This document shows positions 49,995 through 58,235 of a DNA stretch of 64,000 nt, in pieces. The stretch is from Alphaproteobacteria bacterium (GTDB lineage Bacteria > Pseudomonadota > Alphaproteobacteria > Rhodobacterales > Rhodobacteraceae), in assembly GCA_013151335.1 (NCBI GenBank), contig JAADIJ010000092.1, positions 1-64,000 of the forward strand. Direction: 5' to 3'. The translations under genes and the position numbers were made by a program. The notes under the pieces were generated by a model that worked only from the letters and a program-made list of their open reading frames with translations, ran no database searches and was not told where the DNA came from. The first letter of the stretch is position 1; every line of letters starts with the position of its first letter.

Positions 49995-50426
49995 TTAAAG
50001 CGTCAGATGCCGTGCGCGCGCGCCACGTTCAATCGCCGCACCGTGCAGACGGTCGATATTAAGCTCATAGCGGATTTCTTCCAAAAACCGCAGCTCGGTT
50101 TCGCGCAACAAGCCATCGGCGGCGGCCACATCGCAAGCCAATGCATAGGCGGTCTCAAACAGATGTTCGGGCAGCGCGTCGCGCACGAGGCCGAATAAGG
50201 CGTCAATGCCGTCTTCCTCCTCAAACAGCTCAAAAACCACCTGTGACGTGGTTTTAATCCGGTCGGCATCGTAATCGCCAAACACCGGCAAGTGGTTGAC
50301 GATCCGCTCAATCGTCACAAGCTCTGACGTTTTGATGGTTTCATCAGAGACGGAAACCGCAACCATAATGGCTACCAGTGCGTCCTGTGCGGTCATCAGC
50401 GGGGTGAAATTGTCGGGATTGCTCAA
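49995..50426 (-). CDS. TerB-like tellurite-resistance domain protein
   Basis: A 143-residue soluble helical protein. The core LVAIMVAVSVSDETIKTSELVTIERIVNHLPVF and VAAADGLLRETELRFLEEIRYEL fit the TerB/DUF533-like fold, with pairs of acidic residues that may bind metal. No other ter genes are adjacent, apart from a TerC-family protein 20 kb away. Function unknown. It is convergent with dacB. Confidence 0.75.
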   Translation of the reverse strand: MSNPDNFTPLMTAQDALVAIMVAVSVSDETIKTSELVTIERIVNHLPVFGDYDADRIKTTSQVVFELFEEEDGIDALFGLVRDALPEHLFETAYALACDVAAADGLLRETELRFLEEIRYELNIDRLHGAAIERGARARHLTL

Positions 50427-50560
50427 AACATGGCCTCTTTGATTAGGGGATCGAGGGATTTGGGGTGCAGAATATTGACGAAGACGGTCGGGAGCAATAG
50501 GAAGCTGTCGCAGCCGCTCCTTTGTTGGGGTAAATTTCCGAAATTGATTGGAACTTCAAG

Positions 50561-52141
50561 ATGTCCGACATGCGCGACGCCGCACTGAAATCCAAGGCCT
50601 GGCCGTTTGAAGAAGCGCGCAAGCTGGTGAAACGCTATGCAAAATCGGCGCCGAAAAAGGGCTATGTGCTGTTTGAAACCGGCTATGGCCCCTCGGGTCT
50701 GCCGCATATCGGCACCTTTGGCGAGGTTGCGCGAACCACCATGGTGCGGCGCGCATTTGAGGCCATGAGCGATATTCCCACCAAGCTGATCAGTTTCTCC
50801 GACGATCTGGACGGGATGCGCAAAGTCCCCGGTAACGTGCCAAATCCTGAGCGTTTGCAAGAGCATCTGCAACGTCCCCTGTCTGTGGTGCCCGATCCGT
50901 TTGAGGAATATGACAGCTTTGGCGACCATAATAACGCCATGCTGCGGCGGTTTTTGGACACGTTTGGGTTTGATTACGAGTTCTATTCCTCCTCGGTATT
51001 TTACCGCTCGGGCCAGTTTGACGAGGTGCTGCTGCGTTGCGTTCAGAAATACGACGAGATCATGGAGGTGATGCTAAAATCACTGCGTGAAGAGCGACGG
51101 GCGACCTATTCTTGCTTTCTGCCGATCTCGCCCAAATCCGGTCGGGTGCTTTATGTGCCAATGAAGTCTGTTAGCGCCACTGATGGCACGATCACCTTTG
51201 ATGATGATGGCGAGGAGACCACGCTGAGTGTCACCGGCGGGCAGGTCAAGCTGCAATGGAAGCCCGACTTTGGCGCTCGATGGGCCGCGCTTGATGTGGA
51301 TTTTGAGATGTATGGCAAGGACCATTCCACCAACACCCATATTTATGACGAGATTTGCCGTATTCTCGGCGGTCGCGCGCCCGAGCATTTCGTCTATGAG
51401 ATGTTTTTGGACGAGAACGGCGAGAAAATCTCCAAATCCTCGGGCAACGGCATTTCAATCGATCAATGGCTGACCTATGCCAGCGCCGAGAGCCTGTCTT
51501 ATTTCATGTATCAAAAGCCCAGATCGGCCAAGCGGCTGCATTTTGACGTGATCCCAAAGGCGGTTGACGAGTATCATCAGCAGTTGCGGGCCTATCCGGG
51601 CCAAGAGCTTAAGGCGCAGCTCAACAATCCGGTTTGGCATATTCATAATGGCCAGCCTCCGCTCAGCGATATGGTGGTGCCGTTCTCGATGCTGCTCAAT
51701 CTGGCATCGGCCTCCAGTGCGGAAACGCCGGCGCAGATGTGGGGTTTTATCAACAAATATGCCCCTGACGCGACGCCTGCGACCCATCCGGGGCTGGACG
51801 CGGCGGCGGCGCATGCGGTCAGGTATTTCCATGATTTCGTCAAGCCGACCAAGACCTATCGTGCAGCTTCAGACGTGGAAGCCGCCGCACTTGGTGATCT
51901 GCGAAGCCGTCTGTTGGCCTATGATGGCGACACCAGCGCCGAGGGGTTGCAATCCTTGGTGTTTGCGGTTGGAAAAGACCACGGATTTGAGCCGCTGCGT
52001 GACTGGTTCAAAGCCATCTACGAGGTTTTGCTGGGCGCGTCCCAAGGCCCGCGCTTTGGTGGATTTATCGCTCTTTACGGCATTCCCGAGACGGTTGATT
52101 TGATCGAAAAAGGCTTATCTGGCGCGTTTTTAGACACTTAA
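50561..52141 (+). CDS. lysS: Lysyl-tRNA synthetase, class I
   Basis: A class I LysRS of 526 residues, the archaeal-type enzyme found in many alphaproteobacteria in place of class II LysRS. The HIGH-type motif is HIGTFGE and the KMSKS-type is KISKSSG. The N-terminal [11 protein letters not shown] and the C-terminal helical domain are normal. It is upstream of a DUF4864 protein and appears to be transcribed alone or with it. Confidence 0.96.
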
Positions 52142-52207
52142 CCCTGTCAAAACTGTGATTTGAGCGGATGGTATTTGTCCTTACCTGTCTAGCAGGAGGA
52201 CGAAGCC

Positions 52208-52615
52208 ATGAAACATATTCTTGCACTGGTCCTGGCATTAGGACTGGCAACACCGTCGCTGGCGGCGCAACCACGTAGCCTTGAGATAGAGCGCGTTATA
52301 TCCGCTCAATTCCAAGCCTTTCTGAAGGATGATTTTGACACCGCATTTTCTTTTGCCGCCCCATCGATACGGCAGAAATTCGGGACGGCCCAGCGGTTTG
52401 GGCAAATCCTAACCAAAGCGTTTCCGATGGTGGTTAACCCCTCGCGGGTTCAGTTCCTGTCGCTGGAAACCGTCAATGGGCAGCTTGTTCAGCGGGTCTT
52501 GATCGAAGATGAAAAAGGCGTCTGTTATTTTGCTGCCTACACCATGATCGACACGAGCGATGGCTGGCAAATTCGCGCCATTGAGCTCGCGGTTGTGAAC
52601 CAGATGTGGGTTTAG
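52208..52615 (+). CDS. DUF4864 exported protein
   Basis: A 135-residue protein with an N-terminal signal peptide (MKHILALVLALGLATPSLAA) cleaved after AQ or SLAA. The rest, including EIERVISAQFQAFLKDDFDTAFSFAAPSIRQKFG, belongs to DUF4864. It is probably periplasmic with an NTF2-like fold; function unknown. It has a GGAGG site. A hairpin follows the stop. Confidence 0.85.
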   Translation: MKHILALVLALGLATPSLAAQPRSLEIERVISAQFQAFLKDDFDTAFSFAAPSIRQKFGTAQRFGQILTKAFPMVVNPSRVQFLSLETVNGQLVQRVLIEDEKGVCYFAAYTMIDTSDGWQIRAIELAVVNQMWV

Positions 52616-52628
52616 CGGCGAACACGCT

Positions 52629-52662
52629 CTGGCGGATCGAACCGTTGATTTTGATCCGCCAG
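52629..52662. terminator. Hairpin between convergent genes
   Basis: Perfect ten-base arms CTGGCGGATC and GATCCGCCAG with a 14-base loop lie between the DUF4864 gene and the membrane-protein gene, which converge. No strong T-run, so it may act in either direction. Confidence 0.6.
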
Positions 52663-52687
52663 TGCCGCTCGGTTCATTTGGGTCGCG

Positions 52688-53104
52688 CTAGGTGTACGCG
52701 ATAACGGCCATGGTGACGACCAAAAAACCCGTCAAACCCATGGTCATTCCCATCCGTTTGGCAAATATCGGGTTGATCGGAGCGCCCCCGCGCGCAAAGA
52801 TTATACCTTTGACGGTCATGGTCAGCGATAACACGGTTAGCAGGACGACAAACAGGATTTTTGCGGTAAATGAGGGGCTGGTTGCGCCGCCCTGATAGGC
52901 TTGCCACATCCAAATTCCGGTGATCCACAGCAGGATGATCGCGCCAAACGCCACCCGACCCAACACGCCTTGTGCGCTGCGCAACGCGCCAATTGCCGGG
53001 CCTTCGGATCTGGCGGCTCTTATTCCCAAAATCATGCTGGAAATGCCGATCCCGATCCCTGCAGCCAGGCTCATAAAATGAATAATCTTCAACGCAATAA
53101 GCAT
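52688..53104 (-). CDS. Conserved integral membrane protein, 138 residues
   Basis: A protein of 138 residues with about four hydrophobic spans (LIALKIIHFMSLAAGIGIGISSMILGI, VLGRVAFGAIILLWITGIWMW, ILFVVLLTVLSLTMTVKGIIF, MTMGLTGFLVVTMAVIAY). I use the ATG at 53104, preceded by GAGGGG; the open frame reaches 53248. The layout is like small copper-resistance-type or DUF2269-like membrane proteins but no family can be assigned with confidence. Confidence 0.7.
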   Translation of the reverse strand: MLIALKIIHFMSLAAGIGIGISSMILGIRAARSEGPAIGALRSAQGVLGRVAFGAIILLWITGIWMWQAYQGGATSPSFTAKILFVVLLTVLSLTMTVKGIIFARGGAPINPIFAKRMGMTMGLTGFLVVTMAVIAYT

Positions 53105-53337
53105 TGTTTCCCCTCTTCTTTCCTGTTCGCAGCCATCCTCGCCTAAGAGTTGCGCTCTGTCAAACGGGGGAAATTCGGGGAAATTAACCAAACATTCATT
53201 CTTTTTTGCTAATGAATTTGCCACCGGCTTGGCTGTTCGGTTTTCCATATTGAGTATTTTCGACCAATGACCCCGTTTTTCGGCGTGGCGGAGGCATTTT
53301 TCCGCCGATAACTATTTGAACTTAAAGGGATTTTCCA

Positions 53338-55632
53338 ATGAACAAAGCGATTACCGACGGCGTAGTCTTTATGCCCACTGCTTTTTCCGCGGGGCTGGCG
53401 CTCTGGTCCAATCAGGATGGCACGCCGGGCTCGACCAATTACACCGGAGTTCCCGGCGCCTCGGTGATCACCGCCGACAGCGATTTCGGCACCTGTCTGG
53501 AAATAATCAAAGCCTCCGCCACGCAAAAACTGCGCTATATGGTGCAAACTCCGCTGCTGCCGGGCTGCTATATAAAGGTGTCGGCGCGCGTCAAAGCCGT
53601 CAGCGGCAACCTGCCCTCGGTGCAAATCGCGGGCTGGGCCGGAGACGCGGCGGGCGCGCATGTTCCCGGCGTGGTTGAGACCGGCTCATCGACCTTGATT
53701 ACGGCTTACGGCGAGGTTCTGGAGGTTTGGGCCATCATCGGCGCGGGCAATCGCACGGGCGTTGATATGGTCTGGGGGTCTGGCGCGACCTTCGGGCATT
53801 TCGGCCTTGATTTCACCGGCGCAAATGGCGGGATCATTCGCATAGAGGACGTGCGGATCGAGGATGCGACCAACGTGTTTTACCGCAAGCTGATGGACTG
53901 GGTGGATGTGTGCGATTACGGTGCAATCGGCGATGGGGTTACTGATGATAGCCTTGCTTTTGAGGCCGCCGATCTGGATGCCAAAGGCCGCGATGTGCTG
54001 GTGTCGGACGGGGTTTACCACCTCGCCAATCACGTTACATTCGAGAGCAGGGTGCGGTTTGAAGGGACCGTCACCATGCCGACCAACATGCGTCTGGCCC
54101 TGACCAAGAACTATGATCTGCCAACCTATATCGACGCCTTTGTCGACCCCGAGCTGGCGCTACAAAAAGCGCTGCAAACCTTGATGAATTTCAGCGATCA
54201 CGACAGTCTGGACATGTGCGGACGCCGAATTTTGCTGACCAAGCCGCTTGACGTTCACGCGGCAGTCGTCAACCGCGAAACATTCGCCACAAGGCGGGTT
54301 TTGCGAAACGGGCAGTTGCGATCTGATGGCAGTGCCGCGTGGAATACCGAGACGTTTACCTCGCTTGCCAACTATAATGCCGCCCTCAAAACCGAGCTGA
54401 GCAACGTGGCCAATATCTCGCAGATCCCCGTCGGCTCGCTGGTTGAAGGCACGGGCGTCGGGCGCGAGATCTATGTGAAATCGGTCAATATCGCGGCCGG
54501 AACATTGCAGTTGAACCTGCCGCTTTTCGGTGCTCCCGCGCAGCAAACCTACACGTTCAAGCGCTTCAAATATCTGCTGGACTTCAGTGGATTTACGTCG
54601 CTGCATCGCTTCACTCTCGCTAATATCGATTTCTTCTGCGAGGGGCAGTCCAACGGTGTCATGCTGGCAAAAGACGGGCTGACATTTTTGGTTAAGGATT
54701 GCTATTTTACCCGCCCTCGCGAGCGGGGGATCACCTCAATTGGCGGGGGCTGCTCGGGGATGCAGCTTGATCGCAACCAGTTTATCTCAAACGAGCAGAC
54801 GCTAAATGCGGATGCGCGGATTTCCATCGGCTTCAACGTCAACGCAAATGATGTTAAAATCCGTGATAATCGCGGTGTCAGGTTCCGCCATTTCGGGGTA
54901 ATTCACGGCACCGGGCAGATGATTGAGGGCAATCACTTTTACCAAGGCGATAACGTGGCCAATGGGTTGCGCACGGCAGGGATTGTGATGACCTCGACCA
55001 ATCCGAAATCGGTCATTAACGGAAATTACATCGATAATTGCTTTGTCTCATGGTCCAACGAGCATGACGAAACGCCTGACGCGGCGGGGACGTTCTCTTT
55101 TGGCAGCCTGTCGATTATTGGCAATATTTTCATGTCAAACGGCTCTGCCTCATGGTTCCGGTTCATCCAGATCAAGCCCCACGGCGTCGGCCATTTCATT
55201 AACGGGCTGAACGTCTCTGGCAATACGTTCAAGCATATTAACGGCGGAACTATTGACCGTGTGGAGGCGGTTGATGCGTCAATTGCCCCCATGGATGCCA
55301 GTAAATTTCGCAATCTGATCTGGGAGGGCAACACCTATAATAACGTGGTTAACCGGACCTTCAATCCGGTGACGATCCCGATGGAGGAACTGACGACGAC
55401 GCAGACATGGCCTGCCAATCTGTCCGCGTATCTGCCTTTCGGCGGCAAGGCCCGCCATGTGGTTTCGGTGATGGCAGAAAACAAGATCAAAACGGCGGCG
55501 AATCTCGGGGTTTATACGGTGCCATATGCGGTCACGCGGCTGGGCGCGACCGGTTCGGAGATCATGCTACACTGGTCAGAGCCGGTGAAGGGCAAGGTTT
55601 ACACCACTGTTCGGGTTGATAATCCGGTGTAA
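53338..55632 (+). CDS. Large parallel beta-helix protein, pectate-lyase/tailspike-like
   Basis: A 764-residue protein. An N-terminal domain of about 185 residues resembles a carbohydrate-binding jelly roll. It is followed by the pectate-lyase_3 motif DYGAIGDGVTDD at 193-204, then a long right-handed beta-helix with repeated Asn/Gly turns such as MIEGNHFYQGDNVANGL, VINGNYIDNCF and LSIIGNIFMS, and a short C-terminal beta-rich domain. No signal peptide or membrane span is visible. It is probably a polysaccharide-binding or -cleaving protein. Similar proteins occur in Rhodobacteraceae as glycosyl hydrolase 28-related proteins. It is monocistronic, with a strong terminator. Confidence 0.82.
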   Translation: MNKAITDGVVFMPTAFSAGLALWSNQDGTPGSTNYTGVPGASVITADSDFGTCLEIIKASATQKLRYMVQTPLLPGCYIKVSARVKAVSGNLPSVQIAGWAGDAAGAHVPGVVETGSSTLITAYGEVLEVWAIIGAGNRTGVDMVWGSGATFGHFGLDFTGANGGIIRIEDVRIEDATNVFYRKLMDWVDVCDYGAIGDGVTDDSLAFEAADLDAKGRDVLVSDGVYHLANHVTFESRVRFEGTVTMPTNMRLALTKNYDLPTYIDAFVDPELALQKALQTLMNFSDHDSLDMCGRRILLTKPLDVHAAVVNRETFATRRVLRNGQLRSDGSAAWNTETFTSLANYNAALKTELSNVANISQIPVGSLVEGTGVGREIYVKSVNIAAGTLQLNLPLFGAPAQQTYTFKRFKYLLDFSGFTSLHRFTLANIDFFCEGQSNGVMLAKDGLTFLVKDCYFTRPRERGITSIGGGCSGMQLDRNQFISNEQTLNADARISIGFNVNANDVKIRDNRGVRFRHFGVIHGTGQMIEGNHFYQGDNVANGLRTAGIVMTSTNPKSVINGNYIDNCFVSWSNEHDETPDAAGTFSFGSLSIIGNIFMSNGSASWFRFIQIKPHGVGHFINGLNVSGNTFKHINGGTIDRVEAVDASIAPMDASKFRNLIWEGNTYNNVVNRTFNPVTIPMEELTTTQTWPANLSAYLPFGGKARHVVSVMAENKIKTAANLGVYTVPYAVTRLGATGSEIMLHWSEPVKGKVYTTVRVDNPV

Positions 55633-55664
55633 AATACCGCGACCTCCTCTTGTTGAGCTTCCTC

Positions 55665-55694
55665 AAACGCGCCGCGATACCTGCGGCGCGTTTT
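55665..55694 (+). terminator. Rho-independent terminator after the beta-helix gene
   Basis: Perfect 11-base arms AAACGCGCCGC and GCGGCGCGTTT with a seven-base loop and a TTTT tail, 33 bases after the stop. It separates this gene from the TIM-barrel gene. Confidence 0.88.
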
Positions 55695-55767
55695 ATGCGC
55701 TTGCCTGCGTGGATTTGCTATCGCAAACTTGCCAGCGAGCAATTTTTCACAAGGCGGAGACTTTCAT

Positions 55768-56589
55768 ATGGCGCGAACACCTCCGACAATTGGCGCGGCT
55801 CTCAGCATATTGGACCTCGCGAAATTTCGGCCTTGGTTGCTGGAGGGGCAACGCGATCTGGAGCTTCAGGATTTCTGCTTTGCCAGCGTGCTTAACGGCG
55901 ACTGGAAGACGTTCTGCGATCTGGCCAAAGGCATGCTCGACGGATATTCTGGGCGGCTGGGCATTCACGGGCCTTTCTCGGGGTTCGAGATCGACACGAG
56001 AGACCCCGACGTGCGCGAAATCGTCGTCAAACGCATGGATCAAGGCTTGGATGTTTGCGCTGAACTTGGCGCCGTGCAGATGGTCATCCATTCGCCTTAC
56101 AAGACGTGGGATCACAACAATCTGGACCTGAAACCCCGCGCGCGCGCCGCTAAAATCGAGGCCGTGCATCACTGCCTGTCCGGGGCGGTGAAACGGGCCG
56201 AAAACCAAGGTGTGACGCTGGTGATCGAGAACATTCAGGATATCGATCCGCTGGATCGTTTGCGCCTCGCCCAAAGCTTTGATAGCCCCGCCGTCAAGTT
56301 GTCGGTCGATACCGGCCACGCTTATTATGCCCACGGGGTCACCGGCGCGGTTGCGGTGGATCAGTTCATCCGCATGGCGGGCGATATGCTGGCGCATGTG
56401 CATATTCAGGACGCAGACGGCTACGCTGATCGCCACTGGCAGATCGGCGCCGGCACTATCTGCTGGAGAAGCGTTTTTGACGCCATCGCCGCCCTGCCCG
56501 CCAAGCCGCATTTGGTTTTGGAGCTGAATGATAGTGGCCAAATTCCCGCGTCGATTACCTATCTCAGCAATCTTGGGCTTGGGCTTTAA
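55768..56589 (+). CDS. TIM-barrel sugar-phosphate isomerase/epimerase-like protein
   Basis: A protein of 273 residues of the AP_endonuc_2/xylose-isomerase-like TIM-barrel family. Metal-type residues are visible in GIHGPFSG, MVIHSPYKTWDH, LVIENIQD, LSVDTGHAYY and HVHIQDADGY, and in LVLELND. This group includes sugar isomerases and epimerases; the substrate is unknown. The ATG at 55768 follows AAGGCGGAG. It lies after the beta-helix gene but behind a terminator, so it is probably a separate unit. Confidence 0.8.
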   Translation: MARTPPTIGAALSILDLAKFRPWLLEGQRDLELQDFCFASVLNGDWKTFCDLAKGMLDGYSGRLGIHGPFSGFEIDTRDPDVREIVVKRMDQGLDVCAELGAVQMVIHSPYKTWDHNNLDLKPRARAAKIEAVHHCLSGAVKRAENQGVTLVIENIQDIDPLDRLRLAQSFDSPAVKLSVDTGHAYYAHGVTGAVAVDQFIRMAGDMLAHVHIQDADGYADRHWQIGAGTICWRSVFDAIAALPAKPHLVLELNDSGQIPASITYLSNLGLGL

Positions 56590-56867
56590 AGCCTTAATGC
56601 ACCAGATTTCGGCCTGCGGATCCTCCCGACTGGGGCCGGTTCAGGATCGACATAGCTCCCCTAAGCCTACATGATCTGCCCACGGTTCTATTGCATCTTA
56701 AATGTTATAATTATCATCCCCTCACTTGATGTAATCAGTTTATCGACTGCAAAATGCTCGTATTAACATTTCAAATATAATCTCATAAAACCCACCTTGA
56801 TTTTAAAAACCGGCACAGCAATTTCAATTTGGTTCCCCTTGGCCGCTGATTGATCTATAGCCACCGA

Positions 56868-58235
56868 ATGAGTCAAAACCCGCCCAATCTGCGCCCCGAT
56901 ATCGCCCGCGCCCGTGTCCCCGACGCTCCCCGTCCCGGTCAGCCGACCATTGGCATGGTGTCGTTGGGCTGCCCCAAAGCGCTGGTTGACAGCGAGCGCA
57001 TCCTGACCCGCCTGCGCGCCGAGGGCTATGCAGTTTCGCCCGATTACGCTGGTGCTGACGCGGTGATCGTCAATACTTGTGGCTTTCTCGACAGCGCCAA
57101 AGCCGAAAGCCTTGAGGCGATTGGCGAGGCCCTCACCGAGAATGGTCGCGTTATTGTCACCGGCTGTCTTGGGGCCGAGCCGGATTATATTCGCGCCCAC
57201 CACCCCAAAATCCTCGCCGTGACCGGCCCGCATCAATATGAGCAGGTGCTTGACGCGGTTCATATCGCGGTGCCGCCCGACCCCGACCCGTTTGTCGATC
57301 TGCTGCCTGCCTCGGGCGTCAGCCTGACACCAAGACATTACAGTTATCTTAAGATTTCCGAGGGTTGTAACCATAAATGCAAGTTTTGCATCATCCCCGA
57401 CATGCGCGGTCGTTTGCAAAGCCGACCGGCCCATGCGGTATTGCGCGAGGCGGAAAAGCTGGTTGAAAACGGCGTTAAGGAGCTGTTGGTGATCAGTCAG
57501 GATACCTCCGCTTACGGGGTTGATATTGGCCATGCCGAGGAGCGGGGTCACCGCGCGCATATCACTGATCTTGCACGAGATTTAGGCGCGCTCGGGGTGT
57601 GGACGCGCCTTCATTACGTCTATCCCTACCCCCATGTGCGCGACCTTATTCCGCTGATGGCCGACGGGTTAATCCTGCCTTATCTCGACATTCCATTTCA
57701 GCACAGCCACCCCGATATTCTGCGCCGCATGGCCCGCCCCGCCGCCAGTGCGCGCACCTTGGACGAGATCGCCCGCTGGCGCGCAATCTGCCCCGACATC
57801 ACCCTCAGAAGCACGTTTATCGTCGGCTATCCCGGCGAGACCGAGAGCGAATTTCAGCATCTTCTTGACTGGCTTGACGAGGCAAAACTGGATCGTGTCG
57901 GTTGTTTTCAGTATGAAAATGTCACCGGAGCACGGTCGAACGCGCTCCCGGATCATGTGCCAAGCGCGCTTAAACAAGAGCGCTGGAATCGGTTCATGGA
58001 AAAATCCCAAGCGATCTCAGAGGCAAAACTCGCCGCCAAAATCGGAACGCTTCAGGAGGTCATCGTCGATGCGATTGACGATCAGGGAGCCACCTGCCGC
58101 ACCAAGGCCGACGCGCCAGAGATCGACGGCAATTTGTTTATCGACGAAGGGTTCGAGCATCTGAAGCTCGGAGAAATTGTCACGGTCGAGGTTGATGAGG
58201 CCACGGAATACGACCTATGGGGCGAGCTGAAATAA
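56868..58235 (+). CDS. rimO: Ribosomal protein S12 methylthiotransferase
   Basis: A radical-SAM enzyme of 455 residues that adds a methylthio group to Asp88 of ribosomal protein S12. The UPF0004 cysteines C35, C71 and C100 and the radical-SAM triad C167-x3-C171-x2-C174 are all present, followed by the TRAM domain ([10 protein letters not shown]...). The ATG at 56868 is the likely start. The 278 bases upstream are AT-rich and hold nothing else I recognise. Confidence 0.96.

Follow-up and report, generated by a model that had tools for sequence, protein, structure and literature searches.

The gene at positions 53338 to 55632 (plus strand) of the 64,000-nucleotide stretch analyzed here, which comes from an alphaproteobacterium of the family Rhodobacteraceae (assembly GCA_013151335.1, contig JAADIJ010000092.1) and is hereafter called the window, encodes a 764-amino-acid beta-helix protein without an export signal. 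Judged by its sequence, the gene is an ortholog of tspA, whose product in Rhodobacter capsulatus (TspA, Rcc02623) is the trimeric, detachable, biofilm-degrading tailspike of that bacterium's gene transfer agent (GTA), RcGTA (PMC13420450, a preprint of July 2026). It is very probable that the window protein is likewise a GTA tailspike, released by lysis with the particles or free, and that it cuts the biofilm matrix. The orthology, predicted fold, active-site residues, start codon, synteny, and GTA cluster behind this reading were obtained in this study, and the remainder of it is carried over from R. capsulatus. What is new here is an added, ordinary member of the family newly characterized in PMC13420450.

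53338..55632, plus strand: tspA ortholog, predicted GTA tailspike and biofilm matrix depolymerase, 764 amino acids (alignment, model, PMC13420450)

Homologs and family assignment

At least 580 relatives of the window protein were confirmed when genome contigs were searched with sequence patterns. The best 80 of them, all about full length, were aligned with it, and the resulting 81-sequence alignment is therefore biased toward its nearest relatives. The titles of these 80 relatives name Rhodobacteraceae, Paracoccaceae, Rhodobacterales, genera of that group, or Alphaproteobacteria. The 81 proteins are 760 to 765 amino acids long, align nearly without gaps (767 columns for 764 residues), and those compared with the window protein are 52 to 65% identical to it; the published domain ranges of TspA reach residue 763 (PMC13420450). 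In the literature that we searched, PMC13420450 alone names rcc02623, and among eight papers on related subjects it alone uses the name TspA.

Family libraries recognize the protein poorly. The pectate-lyase_3 motif reported by the first-pass annotation, which had been made from the letters of this DNA, is there as a match to PF12708 (pectate-lyase-like; residues 188 to 249), but it scores below the cut-off (19.7 versus 27 bits). Because a relative about 49% identical (L092) scores 40.9 bits, above the cut-off, the relation of the cap region to this clan is probably real. NCBIfam yielded no family for the window protein even at an E value of 10, and a search of plasmid records gave nothing at 1e−5. 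A sequence search of the PDB returned a single weak match, to 26 residues of a beta-1,3-glucanase; that TspA is missing from this search is no evidence that a TspA structure does not exist.

Start codon and export

The open reading frame (ORF) is real and spans 764 amino acids from an ATG, as had been claimed. The whole stop-to-stop frame measures 768 codons and leaves four open codons before the ATG, and therefore a hidden N-terminal signal peptide is impossible for the window protein. No upstream start with a signal peptide exists, the frame being too short for one. The ATG stands at the aligned start in all 81 sequences, and the N-terminal octapeptide MNKAITDG does not vary across the alignment, although this motif was one of the six search patterns and its invariance is partly due to that selection; some relatives carry the variant MNKAITEG. 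By hydropathy only, no signal-like hydrophobic stretch was found in the first 50 residues (best 19-residue Kyte-Doolittle mean, 1.43). Frame length, start, and hydropathy thus agree that the window protein lacks the signal peptide of a classically secreted enzyme, and the absence noted in the first-pass annotation is borne out.

That annotation had offered type I secretion, vesicles, or a phage-derived route as ways out of the cell. Nonapeptide repeats of the form GGxGxD are the mark of RTX substrates of type I secretion. None occurs in the 81 proteins, which leaves the type I route unsupported, whereas the phage-derived route fits GTA lysis. Export by lysis together with GTA particles is most likely, and in this organism it would account for the lack of a signal peptide.

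Predicted fold and active site

The AlphaFold2 model of the window protein (mean predicted local distance difference test [pLDDT] score, 92.1; predicted template modeling [pTM] score, 0.73) shows a long run of short strands preceded by an N-terminal strand domain; the strands are consistent with the domain ranges published for TspA. With boundaries taken from PMC13420450 and shifted by one in the second beta-helix part after a one-residue insertion in the window protein, the layout is as follows.

53338..53877, plus strand: N-terminal beta-sandwich, residues 1 to 180 (PMC13420450 boundaries, model strands)
53878..54345, plus strand: cap and first beta-helix part, residues 181 to 336, including the PF12708 match at 188 to 249 (PMC13420450 boundaries, model)
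54346..54570, plus strand: insertion domain, residues 337 to 411 (PMC13420450 boundaries, model strands)
54571..55362, plus strand: second beta-helix part with the active-site region, residues 412 to 675 (PMC13420450 boundaries, model)
55363..55629, plus strand: C-terminal domain, residues 676 to 764 (PMC13420450 boundaries, model)

In RcGTA, the C-terminal domain of R. capsulatus TspA (RcTspA) serves trimerization and tail-tube contact, and loop 26-36 of its N-terminal domain touches the megatron protein (PMC13420450). Foldseek placed a Klebsiella phage depolymerase, the Sf6, HK620, and LKA1 tailspikes, and a GH87 glucanase near the top. The tailspike-type beta-helix proposed earlier proved right. 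CBM16 chains were also among the fold matches, over about 175 columns in a part of the model that the matches leave unstated. In VIA-align, the adhesin PfbA came first (Z 25.3), RbmB scored Z 24.2, and HK620 about 23.5. These rows are nearly tied, and therefore the fold alone indicates a beta-helix and does not choose a function.

Residue numbers were transferred from PMC13420450 without a direct alignment to the R. capsulatus sequence, and at the published numbers the window protein carries Asp505, His533, and Asp566, all three invariant in 81 of 81 sequences. Mutants of RcTspA in His533 and Asp566 are inactive, Asp505 lies in an inter-subunit cleft, and the active site sits between subunits (PMC13420450). 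Glu377 and Glu575 are invariant in the same alignment, as is the equivalent of Asp645, which is residue 646 in the window protein after the one-residue insertion.

54850..54852, plus strand: Asp505 codon, inter-subunit cleft (D in 81/81; residue named in PMC13420450)
54934..54936, plus strand: His533 codon, catalytic in RcTspA (H in 81/81; mutant inactive in PMC13420450)
55033..55035, plus strand: Asp566 codon, catalytic in RcTspA (D in 81/81; mutant inactive in PMC13420450)

GTA cluster in the same genome and co-occurrence of TspA with GTAs

Two further contigs of the genome from which the window comes, C1 and C189, carry genes of an RcGTA-type cluster. Of the 10 ORFs tested on C1, one close to the end of the contig is unmatched, and the other nine have Pfam matches: terminase, portal, prohead protease, capsid, connector, head completion, tail completion, tail tube, and PF11836, described as "GTA-gp10." C189 starts inside a DUF2460 gene, which we take to encode the distal tail protein of RcGTA, and continues with the baseplate hub, NlpC/P60, and megatron genes. 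The megatron gene is an open frame of 1,211 amino acids with GTA_TIM, Phage-tail_3, and Rcc01698_C domains. RcGTA itself keeps part of its components at scattered loci (PMC13420450). The description of the window gene as standing alone therefore holds locally but misleads at the scale of the genome, because a GTA cluster lies elsewhere in it.

Of 199 genomes of the family, representing nearly as many genera, 171 contain GTA_TIM and 159 have TspA matches. GTA_TIM was the sole GTA marker in this comparison and may also derive from phages whose baseplate is of this kind. Three TspA matches (in G043, G079, and G156) covered only a cap-like or C-terminal stretch and were dropped. After this, both were present in 144 genomes, GTA_TIM alone in 27, TspA alone in 12, and neither in 16 (Fisher's test, P = 8e−6; 147, 24, 12, and 16 with P = 2.4e−6 before the removal). 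Fragmented, frame-shifted, or contig-split TspA in GTA_TIM-positive genomes was counted as present.

Sampling 192 genomes across the class recovered full-length TspA in three, each from the window's family; a further 18 matches are confined to the cap region and fall within residues 174 to 244. Full-length TspA is absent from the 20 GTA_TIM-positive genomes of other families in this sample. The test resolved the family, with the order level not separated, and its result agrees with the conservation of TspA in Rhodobacterales (PMC13420450).

Two further observations concern GTA-like genes. Contig L085 (G000:C13) has a second, partial GTA_TIM match at 465-617 (51 of 299 positions, on a contig of 3.6 kb), and the frames near it resemble serine-recombinase fragments by eye. 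Another HK97-type capsid gene, at G000:C220:9192-10019, is separate from the GTA cluster and may belong to a prophage.

Points against the tailspike reading and alternative explanations

Several observations weigh against the window protein being a GTA tailspike. The GTA parts on C1 and C189 may not be joined. Of the GTA_TIM-positive family genomes, 27 of 171 have no convincing TspA, while eight GTA_TIM-negative ones keep a full-length TspA, and therefore the two are not strictly tied. The divergences of TspA and of its neighbor lysyl-tRNA synthetase (LysRS) correlate only moderately (Mantel r = 0.41, reached in 0 of 999 permutations). The top VIA-align rows mix free or surface proteins with tailspikes within about 2 Z units. 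Finally, PMC13420450 reports seven calcium ligands in RcTspA (E271, D287, R297, and D299; D542, D602, and N635); by the transferred numbering, the window protein keeps three of them (D287, R297, and N635), with P at 271 (and E at 272), L at 299, N at 542, and G at 602, and it has Ser at position 571, where 78 of the 81 sequences have Glu.

The calcium ligands are less conserved than the catalytic residues among the aligned sequences. Asp is found at position 542 in 25 of the 81 sequences and at 602 in 50, and at position 299, 11 sequences have Asp and 31 have Glu. Position 271 is Glu in 80, with the window protein, which has Glu272 beside it, as the sole exception. The calcium sites may be re-made by neighboring residues or may be less important outside R. 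capsulatus. E571 is dispensable in RcTspA (PMC13420450).

Divergence at the calcium ligands and at position 571, together with the eight genomes that keep a full-length gene without GTA_TIM, would suit a protein of GTA origin that no longer has a place on the particle in this organism and now works solely as a matrix enzyme set free by lysis. We regard this as improbable, given the GTA cluster in this genome, whose megatron frame is open, and the megatron-contact loop 26-36, which keeps Gly28 and Gly31, both invariant across the alignment.

The 12 family genomes with TspA and without GTA_TIM bear on the same question. In eight of them (G026, G031, G070, G105, G128, G160, G180, and G186) the frame is 760 to 764 amino acids long, and therefore tspA can exist without a detected megatron. 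All eight genes have a CtrA-like half-site (described below) within 200 bp upstream; the catalytic motifs are present in seven of the eight, and the catalytic residues were placed by alignment in three, including the eighth. Two single-contig genomes carry tspA in shifted frames, one without stops (G040:C1:2645915-2648196), for which a sequencing error is therefore possible, and one with four stops (G111:C1:1543973-1546258). The remaining two genes are split over contigs. It seems that tspA is decaying in at least one genome, as if after GTA loss. There is a low but appreciable chance, to go by these sequences, that in some Rhodobacteraceae TspA has become a GTA-independent matrix enzyme; if so, tspA would be a public-good factor for biofilm dispersal that outlives the particle.

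A still smaller probability attaches to the proposal that the protein is the cell's own pectate-lyase-like polysaccharide lyase or hydrolase, unrelated to GTAs and exported by a route that we cannot name. Free enzymes such as RbmB and polygalacturonases are among its fold matches, the PF12708 relation (weak here, above the cut-off in the L092 relative) points the same way, and so do the eight full-length genes in genomes lacking GTA_TIM. Against it, the frame has no room for a signal peptide and the protein no RTX repeats, TspA is associated with GTA_TIM, and the R. capsulatus ortholog has been seen on GTA particles (PMC13420450).

Gene neighborhood and synteny

The gene is flanked by a divergent minus-strand ORF on one side and by a same-strand xylose-isomerase-like gene on the other. 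The six neighboring ORFs (49995-58235) are TerB-like, LysRS, DUF4864, one unmatched, xylose-isomerase-like, and Radical SAM/TRAM; phage structural or integration genes are absent among them. In R. capsulatus, tspA adjoins lysS (PMC13420450); in the window, two small ORFs lie between the two genes. Synteny, one of the checks proposed for this gene, was counted in 63 tspA loci with at least 5 kb upstream. LysRS was found in 60 of them (on the same strand in 58), the TerB-like gene also in 60, and DUF4864 in 35. The small minus-strand ORF next to the window gene recurs in none of the 63 loci, and the genes downstream recur in none of 55. The GC content around tspA is within the range of the 64-kb window. 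The terminator that the annotation had assigned to the gene is supported by a hairpin that lies inside the annotated end, 55694.

50561..52141, plus strand: class I lysyl-tRNA synthetase (lysS), conserved tspA neighbor (PF01921; 60/63 loci)
~55665..55693, plus strand: terminator-like hairpin, 12 pairs, U-rich 3′ arm (z −4.1 versus shuffles; a simple terminator scan did not list it)

A resident prophage, intact or as a remnant, could instead have supplied tspA to this locus as its tailspike gene, but we consider this the least probable reading: the tailspike-like fold, the weak PHROGs matches to tail proteins (all in the cap region, within residues 172 to 282), and two IMG/VR prophage contigs with a relative next to an integrase speak for it, but the named neighbors are not phage genes, no match was found among 50,697 phage records at an E value of 1e−5, LysRS is a neighbor in 60 of 63 loci, and the GC content is within the window's range. 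A prophage origin, named at the outset as something that would overturn the first interpretation, thus holds in one sense, since by homology the gene belongs to a domesticated prophage, the GTA, and fails in the other, with no prophage at the site.

The two IMG/VR contigs are L090:1-3471 and L091:1-3393. On both, tspA stands at the contig edge with a tyrosine integrase gene about 110 bp behind its stop and converging on it, and phage-like genes, read by eye, lie beyond the integrase. The two integrases are 79 to 81% identical, and that of L091 matches Pfam Phage_integrase. We set aside the possibility that tspA is phage encoded on these contigs, which look like host tspA with a prophage behind it. 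An attachment (att) repeat was not found on either, and neither the host flank nor the far border could be seen. Insertion of a prophage at the 3′ end of host tspA is the simplest reading, and some temperate phages may integrate at tspA. A related integrase (E value of 1e−60 or better) is present in 14 of the 199 family genomes, 12 of which have a TspA match and two of which do not; in those 12, no adjacent pair of integrase and TspA places was listed. Several related integrases lie beside tRNA-like sequences, as read by eye. A close copy of the L090 gene was not found in 394 family genomes (best DNA identity, 77%).

Upstream regions of tspA

The tspA promoter of R. capsulatus is under GTA regulators and is bound by GafA (PMC13420450). 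A CtrA half-site is TTAAC or GTTAA (PMC6363796), and PMC9638019 describes putative half-sites for CtrA at three more of the scattered RcGTA loci. Within the 200 bp upstream of tspA, one or other of the two sequences occurs in 61 of 80 cases, compared with a mean of 12.8 in shuffled regions (maximum of 23 in 200 rounds) and four of 79 downstream regions; because the sequences are related, the 61 occurrences are not independent.

53184..53189, plus strand: TTAACC, putative CtrA-like half-site, −154 from the start codon (half-site sequence from PMC6363796)

An exact palindrome, CACCGTNACGGTG, is present in 18 of 81 tspA upstream regions, for example at −148 in L010, −130 in L069, and −96 in L072, and a single-change form in five more; among 1,620 shuffled regions the exact form occurs in none and the single-change form in one. 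The upstream region of the window gene is without this palindrome. Twelve genomes were chosen for having it, and each of the 12 holds a single copy of the element made up of CACCGTNACGGTG, a spacer of 12 to 16 bases, and TTAA, located at tspA; the positions of these 12 copies tally arithmetically with the tspA starts. By itself, the palindrome occurs at 37 places in these genomes (12 at tspA and 25 elsewhere), versus 10 for the reversed pattern. Twelve of the 25 other places were inspected: 11 are inside ORFs of at least 140 amino acids, and the remaining one is about 160 bp from an ORF that is norC-like by eye. With the full element found only at tspA, we rejected the palindrome as an operator of the whole GTA regulon. 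By eye, the upstream region of the GTA cluster in the window's genome is unlike that of its tspA.

Proposed role and significance

If the window protein works as its R. capsulatus ortholog does, it would be made without an export signal once GTA production is switched on, would trimerize via its C-terminal domain, and would dock loosely, as six trimers, around the GTA baseplate. RcTspA has been seen on GTA particles, where its trimers bind the tail tube, the distal tail protein, and the megatron (PMC13420450). The protein would leave when the producer cell lyses, attached to a particle or free; free release is a hypothesis of the authors of PMC13420450. The beta-helix would then cut matrix polysaccharide at a site shared by neighboring subunits, with Asp505 contributed by one and His533 and Asp566 by the next, and the cutting of the matrix would help particles to reach recipient cells in a biofilm. 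In R. capsulatus, tspA is not essential for transfer: its deletion lowered transfer to anaerobically grown recipients by 70% and left transfer to aerobic ones unaffected (PMC13420450).

We suggest that this answers the export puzzle: a solitary gene close to lysS whose beta-helix product lacks a signal peptide most likely belongs to the dispersed components of a GTA. TspA itself links horizontal gene transfer to life in biofilms. The side results provide leads on how tspA is switched on, on whether it outlives the particle, and on its 3′ end as an insertion site for temperate phages.

Comparison with known systems

Among free enzymes, RbmB, a biofilm polysaccharide lyase of Vibrio cholerae (9ozl), shares the beta-helix with the window protein (304 residues aligned at 19% identity, with the Z score given above), but it is a shorter chain and is tied within about 1 Z unit with many unrelated beta-helix proteins, so that only the fold is shared. 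The GH87 alpha-1,3-glucanase of Streptomyces thermodiastaticus (7c7d) matches the fold with an E value of 5e−8, although the overall TM-score is low (0.22 to 0.29); it is the one beta-helix protein whose N-terminal domain is similar to that of TspA (PMC13420450).

The Sf6 and HK620 tailspikes have the same right-handed beta-helix (Foldseek E values of about 1e−9 to 1e−6), and the inter-subunit active site of TspA has been likened to that of Sf6 (PMC13420450). They differ in that the window protein has no sequence match in the phage collection, and TspA, unlike phage tailspikes, detaches and has an N-terminal domain unlike phage anchoring domains (PMC13420450). The closest system is TspA of R. 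capsulatus itself. The window protein departs from it at several of the reported calcium ligands and at E571, whereas the length (764 residues here), the numbers of the catalytic residues, the lysS neighbor, the presence of a GTA in the genome, and, by the predicted structure, the order of the domains are shared.

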